Shown: in pieces, positions 30,656-39,409 of the stretch
Position numbering within the stretch: position 1 is the first letter of the stretch
How the letters are laid out: each line of letters opens with the position of its first letter
Assembly: GCA_913061265.1 (NCBI GenBank)
Contig: CAJXVS010000005.1
Span: 62,001-126,000, forward strand
Direction of reading: 5' to 3'
Source of the DNA: an uncultured Halobacteriovorax sp.
GTDB taxonomy: Bacteria > Bdellovibrionota > Bacteriovoracia > Bacteriovoracales > Bacteriovoracaceae
DNA length: 64,000 nucleotides
The notes under the pieces: generated by a model
The model's input: only the letters and a program-made list of their open reading frames with translations
What the model was told of the DNA's origin: nothing
The model's database searches: none
Made by a program: the position numbers and the translations under genes

Positions 30656-31768
30656 TTACTCAAACCTAATTTGAATGGCATGATTAGAGAGTTGCTCTAG
30701 CCATGCGTACTCGCGAAGAATGACAGGAGCATTAAGATGTTGCTCTTCACCTCGAGTTAATGGATCATAGTCATAGAGAGGCTGCTCTTTATTGGGGTAG
30801 ATGCTATCTCTAACGTAAAAGACACCACGAGGCTTACAGCCACCATCTTTTAGATAACTCTTTTGAACGCTTGCTCCACGCCTTCTAAAGTTCTTAGCTT
30901 TTCTTAACAGTTTTGCTTTAGTGCTCTCTTCATTTACTTGACTGGCTTCTTCAACAATCTCATCAGCTCTTTTATTCATCTTCTCGTCGTACTTACTAAC
31001 AAAAGGACAAGATTCTGTGCTGGCATGATCATTGAATCCAACAACTAAAGTAGCGTGCCAAAAACCAACATGATTATAGATGACAACTACTGGGGCTTTA
31101 TTCTTTTTAAGGGCATCTTTTACTTTTGAAGTAATATCTTTAGGAGCAGTTCCTACATTCCATTGATTCTTTGCAGGGTCAGCAAAGATTACATCGCGTT
31201 TTAATTTTGGGATTTTGATCTTTGGAAGAGAGTTGAGTGAAGTTAGCTCTACGATCCAATTGTAACGGGTACCATAAAAGGCTCCTTGATCTTCTTCGCG
31301 CGCCTTAACTCTCTTCCCATTAACAGTTTTGTACCACCCCTTTGTAAAAGGAAAGTCTCTGTTTTTATAAGTGATTCCAGTAGCGTTTATGCGCTCAATT
31401 GTATCAGTGCGCCAGTTCTCAATAGCGTTCTCTCCGATAGAGGCTTTTTGAAGATTCATAAAGTATCTTTCAGAGAGGTTTGTTTTCTGTCTTCTTTTTT
31501 TACTCATAAGAACTTCAAGAGCTCCTGTATGGCTCATGAATAAACAAGAGCCGGCGTTATCCTGATAAGGAGCGCCAATAACAAAAGGAACAAGGTCGTT
31601 AAAGCCACGATCAAAGCTTGAATTATTAGGGATGATCGCTTTTGAAGTTACTGACTCAGTTTTATCATCGGAGTATTTAATTCCTTCAATAAGATGGGAC
31701 TCAACTTCATCAGCGAATGAGAATTGAATAAGGGCCATGAGGCTTAAAACTAGAGTGATTCCTTTCAC
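30656..31768 (-). CDS. Exported papain-like (C1-type) protein, catalytic Asn replaced by Asp
   Basis: GTG at 31768 is preferred over an in-frame ATG at 31825 because AAGGA precedes it by 6 bases and the product starts with a typical signal peptide (KGITLVLSLMALIQFSFA). The 370-residue protein has the papain features Q69 and C75 in QDNAGSC and H238 in WHATLVVGF. The third catalytic position, normally KNSWG, reads RDSIY (D321). Between them is a charged helical insertion (about 245-300). It may be a divergent protease or an inactive relative. A second exported papain-like protein with intact residues lies at 36881-37897. Confidence 0.72.
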   Translation of the reverse strand: MKGITLVLSLMALIQFSFADEVESHLIEGIKYSDDKTESVTSKAIIPNNSSFDRGFNDLVPFVIGAPYQDNAGSCLFMSHTGALEVLMSKKRRQKTNLSERYFMNLQKASIGENAIENWRTDTIERINATGITYKNRDFPFTKGWYKTVNGKRVKAREEDQGAFYGTRYNWIVELTSLNSLPKIKIPKLKRDVIFADPAKNQWNVGTAPKDITSKVKDALKKNKAPVVVIYNHVGFWHATLVVGFNDHASTESCPFVSKYDEKMNKRADEIVEEASQVNEESTKAKLLRKAKNFRRRGASVQKSYLKDGGCKPRGVFYVRDSIYPNKEQPLYDYDPLTRGEEQHLNAPVILREYAWLEQLSNHAIQIRFE

Positions 31769-31869
31769 GAATATTCCTTTAAATAAGTAGGTCAGTAGTG
31801 GATCAAATGATGCGGCTAATGGCACGATTTAGCGCGTTAACATATTGATTTTATATGACAAGGAAATTA

Positions 31870-31883
31870 AATACTCAAGTATT
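31870..31883. repeat. AATACT-CA-AGTATT palindrome in a divergent promoter region
   Basis: A perfect 14-bp inverted repeat lies between the papain-like gene (minus) and the secreted-protein gene at 31971 (plus). The core ATACTCAAGT recurs in the leaders of the OmpR regulator (1924-1933) and of mepA (minus strand, 48343-48352). It may be a regulator binding site. Confidence 0.35.
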
Positions 31884-31970
31884 AATCCCAGTTCCCGATG
31901 AGAAGACGAGTACCCTCATTTTTGAGAACAATAAACCGGTTTGTGAGAGAACCAAACAAAGGGACGTAAT

Positions 31971-32954
31971 ATGAGAAAGTTTTTGGCGTTCGTCGCCATC
32001 TGGAGGCTTATTGCCTTCGCCTCTCCGGCATTTGCTGAAGATAACGATCGAAATAAAAGTATTGGTTCGGGAGCAAAGTACCTAGTCGATATGATTATAA
32101 GTGATGCTGGTGTCGCATCTGCTCTTTCTAAGAGTGGGATTCGCGGACAAGCTGCATCACATGTAAAGAGGTCGGTGAAAAATTCATTAGTCGCCCTTTA
32201 TGGTGGATCGACATTGCCAACAAAAAGACAACTAGCGAAAGCTTTAAGTGGTCTTCCTTCAAAAGGAAAAGACGGACGAATCGTTCGTGAGCTTAAGGTC
32301 CTTTTAAATAAGAAGGGTGGAGAGTTAACTAAGGGGGATTTTGTTGATGCTGTTAACAATCTCATTTATCTAGCAAATCGTTATGGACTAAAGTCTAGTT
32401 CTGTTTTGGCTTGTGCCCAATGTGTAAGTGAAAACCTCTCTAAAAATGGCTTTAAATTCACAATGGAATTAGTTGAAAATAGACAGTCCAAACAAGTTCT
32501 GACCTCTGTTCTTCCTCAAGATCCTACTTCTTTAAGCAAGTATGTCACTAGAGAGATGAAGAAATTTGGTGGTACTGGTCGTGACTTTGATAAAATGGTT
32601 TCTTCTGAGGAAGAAAGGGCCCTTGCTCTTTTTCTTGGTCTAGAAAAGTATGGATCAAAGGCACAGAAAGAATTTATAAAGGCTGTAAAAGAGATCTCTA
32701 CAGGTAGTAAAGGTATTAAGCTAGTGGATCAAAGTAATCCTCATAAGCTTTGGAAACTTTTTGCTGATGATGCCTCTCAAGCAGAGCTTGAAGGTTGGAC
32801 TACACTTCTTAGAGAAGTTAGCCAGGAAGCTAAAAAGAGTAAAATTTCTAAGAAAGATGCCTTTTACAAATTATTAACTAAAAAAGCAGGCGACGACGCT
32901 AATATGACATCGAGAATCGATACATTAAAAGCAAAACGTTGTTTTTTCCAATAA
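31971..32954 (+). CDS. Secreted helical protein of unknown function
   Basis: The 327-residue product has a signal peptide ending near SPAFA and a mature part that is almost entirely helical and Lys/Ser-rich, with a CAQC motif near residue 148 that could be redox active or form a disulfide. No family is recognised. It is followed after 13 bases by the amidoligase-like lipoprotein gene, which has a strong ribosome site, so the two form an operon. It may be a partner or substrate of that lipoprotein. Confidence 0.65.
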   Translation: MRKFLAFVAIWRLIAFASPAFAEDNDRNKSIGSGAKYLVDMIISDAGVASALSKSGIRGQAASHVKRSVKNSLVALYGGSTLPTKRQLAKALSGLPSKGKDGRIVRELKVLLNKKGGELTKGDFVDAVNNLIYLANRYGLKSSSVLACAQCVSENLSKNGFKFTMELVENRQSKQVLTSVLPQDPTSLSKYVTREMKKFGGTGRDFDKMVSSEEERALALFLGLEKYGSKAQKEFIKAVKEISTGSKGIKLVDQSNPHKLWKLFADDASQAELEGWTTLLREVSQEAKKSKISKKDAFYKLLTKKAGDDANMTSRIDTLKAKRCFFQ

Positions 32955-32967
32955 AGGGAGGTGCTGT

Positions 32968-35900
32968 ATGAAAAAATCAATTTTTCTAAAATACTTTAAT
33001 TTAAATACTGTCATCGCTTCTGTGTTGGCATTAAGTTTATCTGTAGGTTGTACCCAAAAAGGTAAACGTGGCGTAGCAGACGAAGGGGCTCAGTCAGCTT
33101 TTGATATCTACTCGCAGCTTCAAGAATCTGCTACTAGCTTTAATGCAAAAGCAGTAATGGTAAATGGAGATATGGCGCAAACGGGCCTTACTGAAGGTGT
33201 TGGAGTTTCATGGGGTGCTGAAAAAGAAGCCTCCTCAGCCCTAATCACTAGAGTCATGGGACCTCCAAGCGACAAGTTTCAGTCAATGGTTAATGGTTTA
33301 GAGGAATCTAAAAGAAAAGAATTTCTTTCAGATTTTCTAGATAATTATATGAAAAATGCCAACGGCTATAGAACTTTCAAAACTGAAGAAGGGGTCGTTG
33401 TCGATCTTGCCTCTGATGTAAAAGATATCAATGGTGATTCTAAGCTTATTAACTTAGATGAACTTCGTGGCGTCGATTACAAAACAGCAGATCTTTCTGT
33501 CTTAGAAGCTAAGTTTACAAAATGGCTCGAGATGACAGACGGAAAACCAATGACGTTTGTTAAACCTTCGGTTCAGTCTAAACTCTTTAAAGGTCAGTTG
33601 CCTGGTTTAGACAGCAGTAATAATATTAAAAAAGCTGCGAGTTATACAAGTTGGGTTCCGAATTTTGGTTTACCTGAAAAGTATGTAGCAGCTTCTCATG
33701 GCCATGGTGGCGGTGTAGGTGGTGGTTGGGAGATTAATTTTCTTCCTCAAAAAACATATGGAGAGTTCGAAGAATTCATTGCATGGTTTAGACAAAGCTT
33801 AAAAAATGCAGGAAAACTTTTCCAAGCCCCAGGTCACCATAGAATGGTTTTTATTAAACATCCTGAGCTAGATGAAGCAAAGCTTTCAGAAGTTTATAAA
33901 GCAATTCAAGCATTGATTGTTGTTGATGGTATTCAAGGAAAGACGGGGATTGAAAAGGCTAATTATAAGCAAGTTCAAACTGACTCTGCCCTTACTAGTC
34001 TCTCCACTAGCCGTGGTGTGATTCGTCTTGAAGGTTCACAGTGGGGAGAGAATACCCGCGCCGTTGAATTTAGAGCAGGTACCAAAGATATTAAGGCCTC
34101 TCGTTTTTATCAGACGGTTTTAGCATCTCGAGTTGCGACTAATGACTTCTCAGGTATTGCTGATGTTGGTTCTTGGACTCTTAACAGTGGTCAAGCACCT
34201 TCAGCAAGCGGACTAGCAGAGAAATTTGGTGTAACTGAAGATATAGCGCAAAAGGCACTAGATAATCTTCAGGCAGCTAATATCAAAACGACTTTTCAAC
34301 TTCCTTTTTGGAACTGGATTGATGAGAACAATCCTTTTATTGGAAACCCAAAAAGACAGATGTTAAAATCGATTACTAAAGATTTTATTATCCAAGCAGC
34401 TGCTATTGAGTCTGATCATGAAGTTGTAGGCCGTGAGCTTATGAGAAGATGGACAAAATCTTCAAACTTAGGTCAAGAACTTCGTCAGTATTTAAAGCCT
34501 AAAAGAGGCCTTAATTTAACTGAAGATCTACTTCACTTTAATGCTCCTGAGGGAAGACCTCTAGTTGCATCAGCAGTTGACGTTAACAATATTGACTTAG
34601 GTATTGAGTACTCAGGTCGTCTTCCGCTTAAGTTAGATGCTAACTTTACAGCTGATAGACTAGCTGATGGTCAAAAAGCTTGGATCTCTACAAACATCGA
34701 TTTAACAATGATTGAAAGAGAATCTCTTATTAAGCAAGTCGCTAAAGATTTAGCTACTGAATTAGGAAGTGATATAGAGCCGGTTAAAATGGTAGATGCT
34801 GGTGGTCACGGACATGGTTTAGAGCTTTCTTATGAAGTAAGAGATACTCAGAACAGAAAGTGGATTGTTGAATGGGATGGTATTGGACGATCTTACGATT
34901 CAAGTGGAAATGTGATTGAAGGTTCTGCTCGAGCGGGTTCAATTGAAATCCCAACTCCAAAATTTGTTCCAGAGCCAGCAGAGATGGAAGCAGTCTTTAA
35001 GGCCATGGCCAAGAATAATATTATGCCAAATATTATGAGTGGTGGTGGGCATATTAATATTGACCTTGCAGCCTTTGACGGAAAACCAAAACAATTAGCT
35101 AGATTTATGTCTATTTTCCATGAGCATCGTGGTGTTATCGCCTTGATGTTTCAACATGTGAATAGATTAAAAGCTGGTGCGCCTATTGAGATTAGCGAGA
35201 CGCTTTCTTCAGCCCTTAAAAACTTTACAGGTACAGAAGAAGAGTTAAAGAAGCTTCTCTATAACGAGCAGTACTACAATACTCGCTACGGAAGAAAGTC
35301 TCGGTATATTCAACTAGAGATGTCATCTTATTTCCAAGATGTTATTCCTGAAGAATTTATTACGGAAGACTTTGATATTAAATCGCCTACAGACCCGTGG
35401 CGTAGACAATTCAGAGTTGACCCTAGAATTAGAAAAGCTGAGTTTAGAATGTTCAATGCTCCAAGAGATGCTGCGGAATCTGCTCTTCAGATTAGACTTG
35501 TGAAGGCCATGCTTTCTAAAGCTCTTAATGAAGACGGTGAACTCTCAGGGGCTGTTCAGAAGGTTAAGCATGAGGATTATCTAGGTAATACTGATAAAGC
35601 CTATTCTGACCTTCAAAAGCTTTGTGATGATTTAGGACTAAGTATCGATGATTATAGGCCAGCCGTTGCGGAAGGAATCAGTGATACAGATTTAGCGACT
35701 AGATCAATCTTTTTTGAGTCACTAGAAGCGAAGCACGCGCTTCATCCAAAGCAGCCTTCTTGGGGGCAAGCTGTAAGCTCTAGAGCTGAGCCAATTGGTT
35801 CAGAAGGAAGACACTGGAGTGCAGGTCCAGCTGACGCTCACAATACGATGACTCATGATGAGAGAATTCAGGCCATTAATCAGGCTGACGCTCTTAGAGA

Positions 35901-35982
35901 TGGTATCGTTCCGGACAGAGTTGTGCCAGGTCACTTTAGAAGAACGGATAGTTGTTTAGATGCGGTTGGTCCGTTTATCTAA
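32968..35982 (+). CDS. Large lipoprotein with two tandem amidoligase-like domains
   Basis: The 1004-residue protein has a lipoprotein signal (lipobox LSVGC, Cys at about residue 28). Residues about 540-850 follow the pattern of GS-like amidoligases (Amidoligase_2): GIEYS (E547), VEWDG (635-638), SIEIPTP (E660), GGGHINID (H695, N697, D699) and AEFRMFN (E825, R827). A shorter relative lies at about 245-400 with GWEINFLPQ (E255), PGHHRMVF (H290, H291) and AVEFRAGT (E367, R369). Known members ligate amines to carboxylates using ATP; a lipid-anchored extracytoplasmic form is unexpected, and ATP supply is a problem. It could be a peptidoglycan-related binding or ligase protein. The domain call is from motif pattern only. 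GGGAGG precedes the ATG by 7 bases. Confidence 0.55.
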   Translation: MKKSIFLKYFNLNTVIASVLALSLSVGCTQKGKRGVADEGAQSAFDIYSQLQESATSFNAKAVMVNGDMAQTGLTEGVGVSWGAEKEASSALITRVMGPPSDKFQSMVNGLEESKRKEFLSDFLDNYMKNANGYRTFKTEEGVVVDLASDVKDINGDSKLINLDELRGVDYKTADLSVLEAKFTKWLEMTDGKPMTFVKPSVQSKLFKGQLPGLDSSNNIKKAASYTSWVPNFGLPEKYVAASHGHGGGVGGGWEINFLPQKTYGEFEEFIAWFRQSLKNAGKLFQAPGHHRMVFIKHPELDEAKLSEVYKAIQALIVVDGIQGKTGIEKANYKQVQTDSALTSLSTSRGVIRLEGSQWGENTRAVEFRAGTKDIKASRFYQTVLASRVATNDFSGIADVGSWTLNSGQAPSASGLAEKFGVTEDIAQKALDNLQAANIKTTFQLPFWNWIDENNPFIGNPKRQMLKSITKDFIIQAAAIESDHEVVGRELMRRWTKSSNLGQELRQYLKPKRGLNLTEDLLHFNAPEGRPLVASAVDVNNIDLGIEYSGRLPLKLDANFTADRLADGQKAWISTNIDLTMIERESLIKQVAKDLATELGSDIEPVKMVDAGGHGHGLELSYEVRDTQNRKWIVEWDGIGRSYDSSGNVIEGSARAGSIEIPTPKFVPEPAEMEAVFKAMAKNNIMPNIMSGGGHINIDLAAFDGKPKQLARFMSIFHEHRGVIALMFQHVNRLKAGAPIEISETLSSALKNFTGTEEELKKLLYNEQYYNTRYGRKSRYIQLEMSSYFQDVIPEEFITEDFDIKSPTDPWRRQFRVDPRIRKAEFRMFNAPRDAAESALQIRLVKAMLSKALNEDGELSGAVQKVKHEDYLGNTDKAYSDLQKLCDDLGLSIDDYRPAVAEGISDTDLATRSIFFESLEAKHALHPKQPSWGQAVSSRAEPIGSEGRHWSAGPADAHNTMTHDERIQAINQADALRDGIVPDRVVPGHFRRTDSCLDAVGPFI

Positions 35983-36004
35983 GCTATTGTTTAAAATAAA
36001 CTAG

Positions 36005-36039
36005 AAAAAAAGAGGGCTCCAAGTGGAGCCCTTTTTTTT
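36005..36039. terminator. Bidirectional rho-independent terminator
   Basis: GGGCTCC (36014-36020), loop AAGT, GGAGCCC (36025-36031), flanked by an A-tract (36005-36012) and a T-tract (36032-36039). It sits between the lipoprotein gene (plus) and rplY (minus) and can stop transcription from both. Confidence 0.93.
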
Positions 36040-36061
36040 AGTATTGAATTTAAAAGATGTT

Positions 36062-36697
36062 TTAAGAAGCTTCTTTAATTTCTGTGTCTTCAGAAGCTTC
36101 TTCAGATGTCGCTTCAACAGATTCAGCAGCTGTTTCTGTCGGCTCTTCAACAACAACTTTAGGAGCATGACAGCTTAATAGGTTAGTCTCTGGATCAATA
36201 GTCCAAGCACAACCTTTTGGAGTAGGGACATCACCTAGGTGAATCTGTCCGTTAAGCTCTACTGAGCTTAGATCTACTTCAACGAACTCAGGAATATCTT
36301 TCGGTAGTCCTTCTACGTCAATATGATCAACCATTAAGTTAAGAACACCACCATCTTTAATTCCTGGGGCCTCTCCAACATAATGGATTGGAACACTAAC
36401 TGTTGTTTTTTGACCAGCTTTAAGCTTATGAAAAGAAACATGCATCATATGACTTCCAAGAGCATCTTTTTGAAGATCATCTAGGTTGCAAAGATGTTTT
36501 TTTCCACCAACTTCAATTTCAAAGACTGAACCTGACTGATGAAGAAATTTCTTTAAATCTTGCGCTTTAACTTTAAGCGAAACTGAATCAATTCCCTTAC
36601 CGAAGATAACTCCAGGGATCCATCCTTCACTTCTAAGTGAACTTGGTTTTGAGTCGTTACGATTTGGTCTGCTTTCTACCTTTAGGCACTGGTACAT
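36062..36697 (-). CDS. rplY: 50S ribosomal protein L25, CTC form
   Basis: The 211-residue protein combines the L25 domain (SLRSEGWIPGVIFGKG, residues about 20-90) with the C-terminal TL5/CTC beta domain (VPIHYVGEAPGIKDGGVLNL, VEGLPKDIPEFVEVDLS) and an acidic tail rich in Glu/Ser/Thr. L25 binds 5S rRNA. A Cys-rich variation (NLLSCHAPK) replaces the usual end of the CTC domain. It stands alone, without the pth gene that often accompanies it, and shares a terminator with the convergent lipoprotein gene. Confidence 0.94.
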   Translation of the reverse strand: MYQCLKVESRPNRNDSKPSSLRSEGWIPGVIFGKGIDSVSLKVKAQDLKKFLHQSGSVFEIEVGGKKHLCNLDDLQKDALGSHMMHVSFHKLKAGQKTTVSVPIHYVGEAPGIKDGGVLNLMVDHIDVEGLPKDIPEFVEVDLSSVELNGQIHLGDVPTPKGCAWTIDPETNLLSCHAPKVVVEEPTETAAESVEATSEEASEDTEIKEAS

Positions 36698-36880
36698 AAT
36701 CCTTCCTTGGTTTGTGTACTTATTATTACTAACAATCTTACCGCATTTCTGAATTTTTTTCAGCAGGGCTTAGGCATATTGTATAAGAAGCAGATTATAG
36801 GTGGTATTCAGCAAATTCTTCCGGAGTAGCTGACCGTTTGTGTCGTGCAATTTGGGAAGGATCAGGTTCCAATACTCTTT

Positions 36881-37897
36881 ATGAAAAATTCACTCCTTAT
36901 CTTATTGATTTTACTATTTTCTTCTCCTGTTATTGCAGGAGATTCAAGCTCTGATACGCTAAAGATCATGAGTTATATGACTGAAGTTAAGAGCCAAAGA
37001 AGCCGTGGTACTTGCACGATCTTCTCAACTACTGGTCTTCTTGAAGCGCTTCTTATTAAAAAAGGATTAGCCGCTAAAGATATCGACCTCTCTGAAGAGT
37101 GGTTAGAGTACTTGGCCATGAGTAATCAAAATGATGAAGGCTCTACTGTTAATAGAAATATTAAAAAACTTCGCTTCTTTGGAATGACGACAGAAAAGCT
37201 ATGGCCTTATGTGGGAGAGAAGTGGACAGACCTAGATTCTAATCCATTGGCCAGATCACGCTGCGAATCTCTTAGTGGTGATAAGCTTTTAAGTTGTTTA
37301 TTTGGTCATCAAAACCCTGAGCTTCTACGAGGAGAGGATAATTATGTTCTTGAGATGGATGAAGAATTCTTTCATATAAGAGAAGACGCTAAGACTTTTA
37401 TGAATGATATGAACCTTAGAAGTAGGATTACTAAATCTAAGAGTTATCAAATAGAAATGAGTGAGGCCAAGAGGCTTCTTCTTAAAGGCACTCCGGTTAT
37501 CGCTGGTATAAAGCTTTATTACGGTTCATGGAATCATTCAAAAACTGATAAGTTTGGTATTCAAAAGCGTGATAAGTCACTTTGGTATAAAGGTGTCGTT
37601 GGTTACCCAGAAGCTGGCTCTAAAGACCGTAGGATCTGTGATGAAAGAGGCGGTGGGCATTCAATAATCATCGTAGGCTTTGATGATAAAAAGACTATCA
37701 CCTCAAGACTCTTGATGGATGACGGGTCTTGGAAAACAACGACTTATAAAGGCGTTTACTATTTTAAGAATTCTTGGGGCGTAAAAGGCTTTGGGCGTGA
37801 TTTTAAGTTTAACGGAGAACCTAAGCCAGGTTACGGTATGGTTACTCAGAAATACTTGAACAATCTAGGCCGGTTCTATCACCTTCCTTTAAAATAA
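36881..37897 (+). CDS. Exported papain-like cysteine protease
   Basis: The start at ATG 36881 gives a typical signal peptide (KNSLLILLILLFSSPVIAG); an in-frame GTG at 36845 would only add 12 residues in front of it. Neither has a convincing ribosome site. The 338-residue protein keeps all C1 papain residues: Q39 and C45 in QRSRGTC, H260 in GGGHSIIIVGF and N297 in FKNSWGVKGFG. The Trp usually after the catalytic Cys is replaced by Thr. It is probably an active secreted protease. A lipoprotein gene follows after 24 bases and may be co-transcribed. Confidence 0.83.
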   Translation: MKNSLLILLILLFSSPVIAGDSSSDTLKIMSYMTEVKSQRSRGTCTIFSTTGLLEALLIKKGLAAKDIDLSEEWLEYLAMSNQNDEGSTVNRNIKKLRFFGMTTEKLWPYVGEKWTDLDSNPLARSRCESLSGDKLLSCLFGHQNPELLRGEDNYVLEMDEEFFHIREDAKTFMNDMNLRSRITKSKSYQIEMSEAKRLLLKGTPVIAGIKLYYGSWNHSKTDKFGIQKRDKSLWYKGVVGYPEAGSKDRRICDERGGGHSIIIVGFDDKKTITSRLLMDDGSWKTTTYKGVYYFKNSWGVKGFGRDFKFNGEPKPGYGMVTQKYLNNLGRFYHLPLK

Positions 37898-37921: not shown

Positions 37922-39409
37922 GTGAGACACCTTATTCTTATTATTCCACTTTTTCTCTTTTTAAGCTCTTGTTCTCATGATTTGGGTCGGAGCTTTGCCT
38001 CTACTAAGATGGCGAGTTCTTGCTTTGAAGAGGTAAGAAGGTCGTGCCATGAAAAACACCCTTATACCGAGATAAAAAAAGGCTTCTTTGAACTTCAGTA
38101 CAAGTATCTTAATAAAAAGAATAAGGTTCATATTCTATATAATGACTGCTTTGCAAAAAGAAGTCTTTCTTGCAGTGAAAAGCATGGAAGCCCAGAGTCC
38201 ACGAAGAGGTTTAATCAACTAGTAAAAAACCTTAAGACAGAAGAGTCCTTAAATCAGGTTAATGAAAATACTCTTTTTAATAATTTATCGATTCCTTTTC
38301 TGGATCTAAGCACTAAGGATATTAAGAAAGTTTGGCAGACTGTCTTTCTTATAAAGAAGTCATTTTTAAAAGTGAGGGATGCCTTAGGCTTTGTTAAAGA
38401 TAAATCAATTAATGGAATGCATGGTGTAGGAGTTAGCGCTAGTGGAACGGCACTTCTAGGAATTGGTGGAACACTTCAACTTGAGGCCGTCATTCATAAT
38501 AGAAAGATGGCGCTCTTTTGCGCACCAGGAGTTACGGCTCAAACTGATATAGGTGTCTCTTTAGACTTTGGAGTATTTAAGACTTTAGGCTGCAGAGATA
38601 ATCAAGACTATCAAGGAAAGTTTCTTAGCTTTACAGCAGGAGTAAGCGGTGAGGCCATAGGTCTTCCTTTTAATGTTGGCGCTAACTACGCTCTAGGTCT
38701 TGGGCTCTCTGAATTTTTAGAGGCCATGGCCCGTGAGAAAAAGGCGGGGAGGCTTGATCTCTTTAGGTTGACCGCGGAGACTAGTCTCTTTAGCGCAAAA
38801 AGTTTTGAGTTGATGGCAAGGCTTGGGATGAATCCAAATGATCAGTTCTCCTACTTAATCATCTCAAAGATGATCGCTCTAAGTCTTGGTGAAAAGGAAG
38901 TGCTTAATGAATTCAATCATTCCTTTGATGAGTTTAAAAACTTCACCAAAGAAGATGGAGTAGACAAGACCCTTAACTTAAAACCCTTGGCCCATCATAT
39001 AAAGAGCTTTTTAAAATTTATCCTTATCATGGAAGAAACTTATGCTATGGATCTTAGTCAGTTTAAAATGGTGGTGACCGAACTTGATAAGAGTATCTCT
39101 AGCTGCGATGCTATTGGGCTAACAGGGGGGCTTAGTCTAACTCTCTCCCCAGTCAATGTTGGATCTATCATTTATCAATATACAATGTTAACGGAAATTG
39201 ATCTCGATGATGTTTTCTATCTCGCGGGTTTTGCTCCTGCGAATCTCTTTAGGTTGAACTTATCACCTATCGAGAAGGAGCGTTTTACTAAAGCAGTCTC
39301 AGGCATTCTCAAGATCATTCCTGATCTTTGGTTTAATCAATGCCTAAGTCATGCGGCTGATAACTTTTCTAAAGATGGAGAGAACCTCTTTCGCATCCTT
39401 ACTGATTAG
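37922..39409 (+). CDS. Lipoprotein of unknown function
   Basis: The 495-residue protein begins with GTG and a lipoprotein signal (LFLFLSSC, Cys at about 17). The N-terminal 90 residues contain several Cys (CFEEVRRSC, NDCFAKRSLSC) that may pair. A central glycine-rich stretch (GVGVSASGTALLGIGGTLQLEA, FTAGVSGEAIGLPFNVGANYALG) resembles beta-barrel or porin-like strands, while the last 200 residues are helical. No family is recognised. A CCGATAA sequence at 37908-37914 just upstream could be a sigma-28-like -10 element, but the start would then be nearly leaderless. Confidence 0.65.
   Translation: MRHLILIIPLFLFLSSCSHDLGRSFASTKMASSCFEEVRRSCHEKHPYTEIKKGFFELQYKYLNKKNKVHILYNDCFAKRSLSCSEKHGSPESTKRFNQLVKNLKTEESLNQVNENTLFNNLSIPFLDLSTKDIKKVWQTVFLIKKSFLKVRDALGFVKDKSINGMHGVGVSASGTALLGIGGTLQLEAVIHNRKMALFCAPGVTAQTDIGVSLDFGVFKTLGCRDNQDYQGKFLSFTAGVSGEAIGLPFNVGANYALGLGLSEFLEAMAREKKAGRLDLFRLTAETSLFSAKSFELMARLGMNPNDQFSYLIISKMIALSLGEKEVLNEFNHSFDEFKNFTKEDGVDKTLNLKPLAHHIKSFLKFILIMEETYAMDLSQFKMVVTELDKSISSCDAIGLTGGLSLTLSPVNVGSIIYQYTMLTEIDLDDVFYLAGFAPANLFRLNLSPIEKERFTKAVSGILKIIPDLWFNQCLSHAADNFSKDGENLFRILTD

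Follow-up and report, generated by a model that had tools for sequence, protein, structure and literature searches.

Organization of the Locus

The analyzed window is a stretch of 64,000 nucleotides from an uncultured Halobacteriovorax sp. (assembly GCA_913061265.1, contig CAJXVS010000005.1, positions 62,001 to 126,000). It carries a gene, designated here AMD (32968-35982, + strand), which encodes a 1004 aa protein with a glutamine synthetase (GS)-like amidoligase fold that is predicted to be exported and probably lipidated. Upstream of it lies HEL (31971-32954, + strand), encoding a secreted all-helical protein, and beyond HEL, on the opposite strand, is C1a (30656-31768, - strand), which was assigned to an exported papain-like protein on the basis of the open reading frame (ORF) list and homology. 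The gene for a second exported papain-like protein, C1b (36881-37897, + strand), is found downstream of AMD, and rplY, encoding ribosomal protein L25/Ctc (36062-36697, - strand), stands between the two as a bystander. All the ORFs named in a preliminary description of this region were found at the coordinates it had given. The GTG start of C1a at 30656-31768 is the same in its orthologs; the residue numbers used below refer to a 389-aa ORF beginning at 31825 for C1a and to a 350-aa ORF beginning at 36845 for C1b. The best reading of the results is that AMD represents a previously undescribed, exported branch of the GS-like amidoligases that is paired with a helical protein of its own.

GS-like Fold of AMD

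Based on Pfam annotation, residues 589-790 of AMD match Amidoligase_2 (PF12224), scoring 23.4 bits where the cut-off is 22, and the same family was matched by 34 of the 35 AMD-family members (E<=1). The AlphaFold model built from a 35-sequence input had a mean predicted local distance difference test score (pLDDT) of 85.7 and a predicted TM-score (pTM) of 0.86. The 50 best matches of this model in the PDB were GS-fold enzymes only (glutamine synthetases, YbdK and PafA), with probabilities of 0.5-1.0 and a best E-value of 1.5e-3 (probability ~1), and its best viral matches in the BFVD were phage amidoligases (E 7e-6). Comparison of the domain 2 profile of AMD with other Amidoligase_2 proteins gave a probability of 92% and an E-value of 5.6e-7. 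Against a smaller Amidoligase_2 set, the motifs IE.TP, GG.HI.I and EFR.FN were aligned; they recur in other Amidoligase_2 proteins as IEITSP, GGIHIH and IEFRLFN. An ADP-ribosyltransferase, the sole sequence match of AMD in the PDB, was weak and implausible, and it was discarded. Judging by the sequence and the model, residues ~540-860 of AMD are a glutamine-synthetase-like amidoligase domain. The preliminary description had supposed such a fold in this protein, and it was found, at least for domain 2.

Region 2 (residues 530-860, 34555-35547, + strand), which comprises this domain, contains the motifs GIEYS, GHGH, VEWDGIGR, IEIPTPK, GGGHINID and KAEFRMF. In the alignment of 35 members, E547, E583, H614, H616, E635, D637, R641, E660, H695 and R721 are invariant, as are G692 and G693 of the GGxHxH/N motif. 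N697, E825 and R827 each recur in 34 of the 35, and thus the GGxHxH/N and ExR motifs are present. Region 1 (residues 62-400, 33151-34167, + strand) is a candidate first GS-like domain with the motifs GAEKE, GGWEINF, PGHHRMVF and EFRAGTK. Between residues ~80 and 395, the motif order G-x-E-x-E ... WE ... PGH ... ExR is nearly invariant: E255, H290, E367 and R369 are kept throughout the same alignment and E85/E87 in 34 of its members. The order of strands and helices of region 1 in the model resembles that of domain 2. An origin of the two domains by internal duplication was considered and rejected, the profile-profile comparison being not significant.

GS-like COOH-NH2 ligases, including Amidoligase_2, were reportedly described by Iyer et al. 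in 2009. AMD shares with Amidoligase_2 the GS-like fold, the IE..TP, GGxHxxxD and ExR motifs and a hidden Markov model score above the cut-off. In contrast to that family, it is predicted to be exported, has one confirmed and one candidate domain per chain, carries a replacement of the second Glu of the E-x-E motif in domain 2 together with the extra motifs GHGH and VEWDGIGR, and is accompanied by a helical partner and papain-like neighbors. Glutamine synthetase, YbdK (GCS2) and the PafA-Dop group provide the best PDB fold matches of the AMD model, but at an identity of about 10% and TMt values of 0.2-0.38. The enzymes of this group are cytoplasmic.

Export and the C-Terminal Cysteine

The N-terminal hydropathy of AMD, HEL, C1a and C1b was 2.2-2.7, whereas that of seven cytosolic genes of the window was 0.0-1.4. 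For the AMD signal segment itself (32968-33051, + strand), the value was 2.48 against 0.01-1.43 for the same seven controls. Some relatives had lower values (1.2-1.9), although their N-termini were still hydrophobic. Based on hydropathy and sequence, this segment includes a lipobox-like LSVG|C with Cys28. A lipobox fits the AMD N-terminus in the window and in the loci L059, L060, L063 and L064; in most other members it is missing or non-standard, and many of them bear a signal-like segment of a non-lipoprotein type. Since the lipobox is missing in many relatives, lipidation is not a feature of the AMD family. The designation of AMD as a lipoprotein, made earlier, probably holds for the window protein, in which lipid anchoring is likely, and for a few relatives, but does not extend to the many with a non-lipoprotein segment. 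Export is predicted to be general across the family.

AMD ends in a short tail (..RTDSCLDAVGPFI, 35920-35982, + strand) with a conserved Cys. A Cys within the last ~20 residues was present in every untruncated protein of the AMD-family set examined; two more distant members (family f3) had no C-terminal Cys. In the ORF sample, a Cys occurred in the last 18 residues of 39% of the signal-bearing and 23% of the other proteins, and against this background the near-universal C-terminal Cys of AMD stands out. The C-terminal tail of HEL is likewise short and carries a conserved Cys. In several distant AMD orthologs, a helical, HEAT-like extension of ~700-1160 aa is fused at the C-terminus, and in the fused orthologs L066, L069, L070, L072, L074, L075, L077 and L084 the Cys-bearing tail is found at the new C-terminus.

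HEL and the Papain-like Proteins

The model of HEL is mostly helical (pLDDT 82.8), which together with its hydrophobic N-terminus agrees with the secreted helical protein proposed previously for 31971-32954. The C148-x-x-C151 pair and the C-terminal Cys324 (..RCFFQ) are invariant among HEL orthologs. Searches revealed neither a Pfam family nor a PDB fold match for HEL, nor any relation of it to AMD. The window genome (G000:C4) and many relatives contain a HEL paralog, which is flanked by two giant exported proteins of ~1350 and ~1580 aa belonging to no known family (L090:3295-13344 in G000:C4, L092, L096, L098, L099 and L100). The larger of the giants has a Gly-rich hydrophobic hairpin near residues 1000-1060. 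Neither giant is related to AMD, to the fused helical region or to the C1 proteins. Judging by AMD and by the two giants around the paralog, HEL-type proteins appear to pair with large exported proteins.

C1b matched Peptidase_C1 with 31.3 bits, above the cut-off of 20.7, and its sequence matches were cathepsins and falcipain. Gln51, Cys57, His272 and Asn309 are invariant across its orthologs and make up the full catalytic set. Like members of the papain family, C1b thus has both the complete Gln/Cys/His/Asn set and a score over the Pfam cut-off, and the gene at 36881-37897 was correctly taken for an intact papain-like protease. A second C1b paralog in the same genome (G000:C8:80196-81275, L091) lies beside metabolic genes and not beside an amidoligase.

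C1a differs from the papain family in scoring below the same cut-off (14.8 bits) and in having Asp instead of Asn, though its N-terminal half is related to C1b (hhalign probability 93%, E 3e-7). Gln88, Cys94, His257 and Asp340 are invariant in 16 aligned orthologs, and the change of Asn noted earlier proved to be an Asp in all orthologs covering the position. Strict conservation of Cys, His and Asp led us to reject the view of C1a as a dead protease. Asp as the third catalytic residue is common in other cysteine peptidase families, and C1a is therefore probably an active Cys-His-Asp variant rather than a standard Peptidase_C1 member.

Conservation of the Gene Neighborhood

The close clade was defined by AMD with at least 50% identity and the presence of upstream sequence, which gave 20 loci. 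HEL was found directly upstream of AMD in all of them at a spacing of 9-53 bp, which suggests that HEL and AMD form one operon. C1a was located divergently beyond HEL in 18 of the 20 (the exceptions were L037 and L060), and the C1a-HEL-AMD trio was kept even where the surroundings change (L061-L063). C1b was linked downstream of AMD in 8 of the 21 loci having downstream sequence and was directly adjacent in five. In L064, a metagenome-assembled genome of Halobacteriovorax sp. SP2999 (contig shared with G001), the gene order is the same as in the window, and AMD has 81% identity.

The rplY gene separates AMD and C1b only in the genus of the window, and it is absent between them in L032, L033, L056, L058 and L080. 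It is most simply explained as a late insertion, so the interruption of the gene set by rplY was not counted against the association of AMD with C1b. It should also be considered that many relatives have the purH-purM-...-prfC block in common, and this general synteny accounts for part of the neighborhood conservation. Among 97 relatives, a strong C1a was present in 9 of the 10 genomes with a close AMD and in 4 of the 87 others, a contrast that relatedness inflates. The preliminary description had allowed for an accidental association of these genes and had pointed to gene order in related genomes. The association of HEL, AMD and C1a turned out to be real, whereas the link to C1b is weaker, and the neighborhood dissolves in distant orthologs.

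Other Exported Amidoligases in Bdellovibrionota

The Amidoligase_2 family was searched across 144 Bdellovibrionota genomes. As a result, several families besides AMD were found, and in at least 11 of the inspected proteins (L134-L139 and L143-L147), and probably in L140 as well, the N-terminus was signal-like or contained a lipobox. Some of the proteins are predicted to be cytoplasmic (L111). The 11 exported proteins resemble AMD in the signal-like N-terminus and the Amidoligase_2 domain, but they have a single GS domain, in most cases with an intact E-x-E pair, and are not detectably members of the AMD family. No papain-like neighbors were found for them by a scan for the Q..G.C motif and with the C1a and C1b profiles. 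Seven of these proteins (L134, L135, L137, L138, L143, L146 and L147) were recorded as exported Amidoligase_2 proteins unmatched by the AMD-family profile, several of them with a C-terminal Cys.

In the remaining four, an R2K ATP-grasp-like domain follows the amidoligase domain (L136:6924-10451, L139:7820-10216, L144:5859-8357 and L145:6568-8847), and these may be double ligases outside the cytoplasm. The R2K match of L136 reached 38.2 bits against a cut-off of 26.3, that of L145 was just below the cut-off, and those of L139 and L144 were weaker. The existence of further exported families, four proteins of which carry R2K, suggests that ligase-type enzymes have been repeatedly exported in this phylum. 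We regard these several exported families as the more surprising part of the findings. In the literature searched, with most subscription papers outside reach, no description was found of exported amidoligases or of these genes in Bdellovibrio and similar organisms.

Proposed Function and Alternatives

We suggest, tentatively, that AMD belongs to the GS-fold amidoligase group, is exported and carries out amide-bond chemistry outside the cytoplasm with HEL, while papain-like proteins perform trimming. In this scheme, the products of the putative HEL-AMD operon would work there as a pair, joined in the Halobacteriovorax-like clade by one or two papain-like proteins that are also exported. AMD would form or exchange an amide bond at a peptide or protein carboxyl group, either in the predator envelope or in the prey compartment, and ATP might come from the prey contents on their release. 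C1a and C1b may mature, trim or undo the product of AMD or its components. With a Glu lost in domain 2, the chemistry could be left to domain 1, in which E-x-E is kept, or could rely on a changed metal site with the added GHGH. We infer ligase catalysis by AMD from its motifs and modeled fold. A similar combination of an ATP-dependent ligase with a protease able to reverse or tune its action occurs in RimK/RimB and in Rlo, the proteases of the latter being exported; unlike the AMD set, these systems combine a cytoplasmic ATP-grasp ligase with an aspartic protease and have no GS-like domain (PMC12239564).

Several points weigh against this scheme, and the supply of ATP and the lost paired Glu in domain 2 are the dominant uncertainties. 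Outside the cytoplasm, ATP is not normally present. In domain 2, the E-x-E motif (G-I-E547-Y-S/T) has lost its second Glu, with Ser at this position in 25 and Thr in 10 of the 35 members, so that ordinary ligase chemistry should not be taken for granted. The fold matches of AMD had modest TM-scores (TMt about 0.2-0.55), as expected for a query of 1004 residues, and none in the PDB had an E-value below 1e-3. Region 1 gave no Amidoligase_2 match in the 28 members searched, and hhalign runs of it against domain 2 and against other amidoligases stayed at noise level. Because its motifs and strand order are kept and yet it is recognized by neither Pfam nor profile comparison, region 1 is a likely but unproven additional GS-like amidoligase domain; of the two amidoligase-like domains initially proposed, only the second is thus supported by Pfam and by profile comparison. 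In addition, distant AMD orthologs (<=43% identity) have other neighbors instead of papain-like ones, and C1a is present in genomes without AMD (G008, G047 and G085). As for ATP, Bdellovibrio reportedly has an ATP transport system (Ruby and McCabe 1986, in the reference list of PMC4834554), and on this basis extracytoplasmic ATP during predation would be conceivable.

Due to the missing Glu in domain 2, a hydrolase related to Dop, a silent scaffold and an accidental presence of the proteases must all be weighed as rivals. The depupylase Dop has the GS fold and hydrolyzes isopeptides, and AMD could likewise be a hydrolase or transferase, working with the exported proteases to remove amide-linked groups from envelope or prey proteins or to exchange them. 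A hydrolase could act extracellularly without ATP in stoichiometric amounts; moreover, the Pup ligase PafA, a sister of Dop, is among the PDB fold matches, AMD sits with proteases, and one catalytic Glu of its domain 2 is replaced. Nevertheless, we consider this function rather unlikely: nothing in the AMD sequence favors hydrolysis, and the related exported Amidoligase_2 proteins bear ATP-grasp-like ligase domains. If AMD were instead a GS-fold envelope protein that has no catalytic role but serves as a scaffold or for binding, HEL being its structural partner, the altered E-x-E in domain 2, the scaffold-like appearance of HEL and of the fused helical regions, the conserved Cys tail and the lack of external ATP would all be accommodated. 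However, dozens of invariant charged residues in enzymatic motifs across about 40% identity, as well as the E-x-E kept in domain 1, make such a role unlikely.

A further question is whether C1a and C1b belong to the system or are chance or syntenic neighbors engaged in general prey digestion, so that the functional unit would consist of HEL and AMD only. The synteny of the whole purH-purM-...-prfC block, the position of C1b, which is not beside AMD in most loci and is unlinked in G013 and G057, the occurrence of C1a and C1b homologs elsewhere without AMD, and the exported amidoligases without papain-like neighbors all speak for this. We regard it as a serious possibility but find it somewhat doubtful, given that C1a accompanies HEL-AMD in 18 of 20 loci, even in altered surroundings, that C1b directly follows AMD in five, and that a strong C1a is concentrated in close-AMD genomes, with the reservation about relatedness given above.

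The cytoplasm is where ATP-dependent ligases would be expected. With a conserved exported GS-like family and several further exported families in the same predatory phylum, some of them with an ATP-grasp-like domain, either predation would involve the use of ATP outside the cell or the fold would have adopted another chemistry there. In a broader version of the proposed amidoligase function, which we hold to be improbable, predatory Bdellovibrionota would possess a set of ATP-dependent peptide ligases at work outside the cytoplasm, both GS-like and GS-like with ATP-grasp, which during predation would act on envelope or prey peptides with prey-released ATP. AMD-HEL with the papain-like proteins would then be the best-conserved cluster of it, in the Halobacteriovorax clade.

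Adjacent Gene

Just past C1b, at 37922-39409, there is a gene encoding a lipoprotein-like protein of 495 aa with no Pfam family, which is kept only within the genus (59% in L064).

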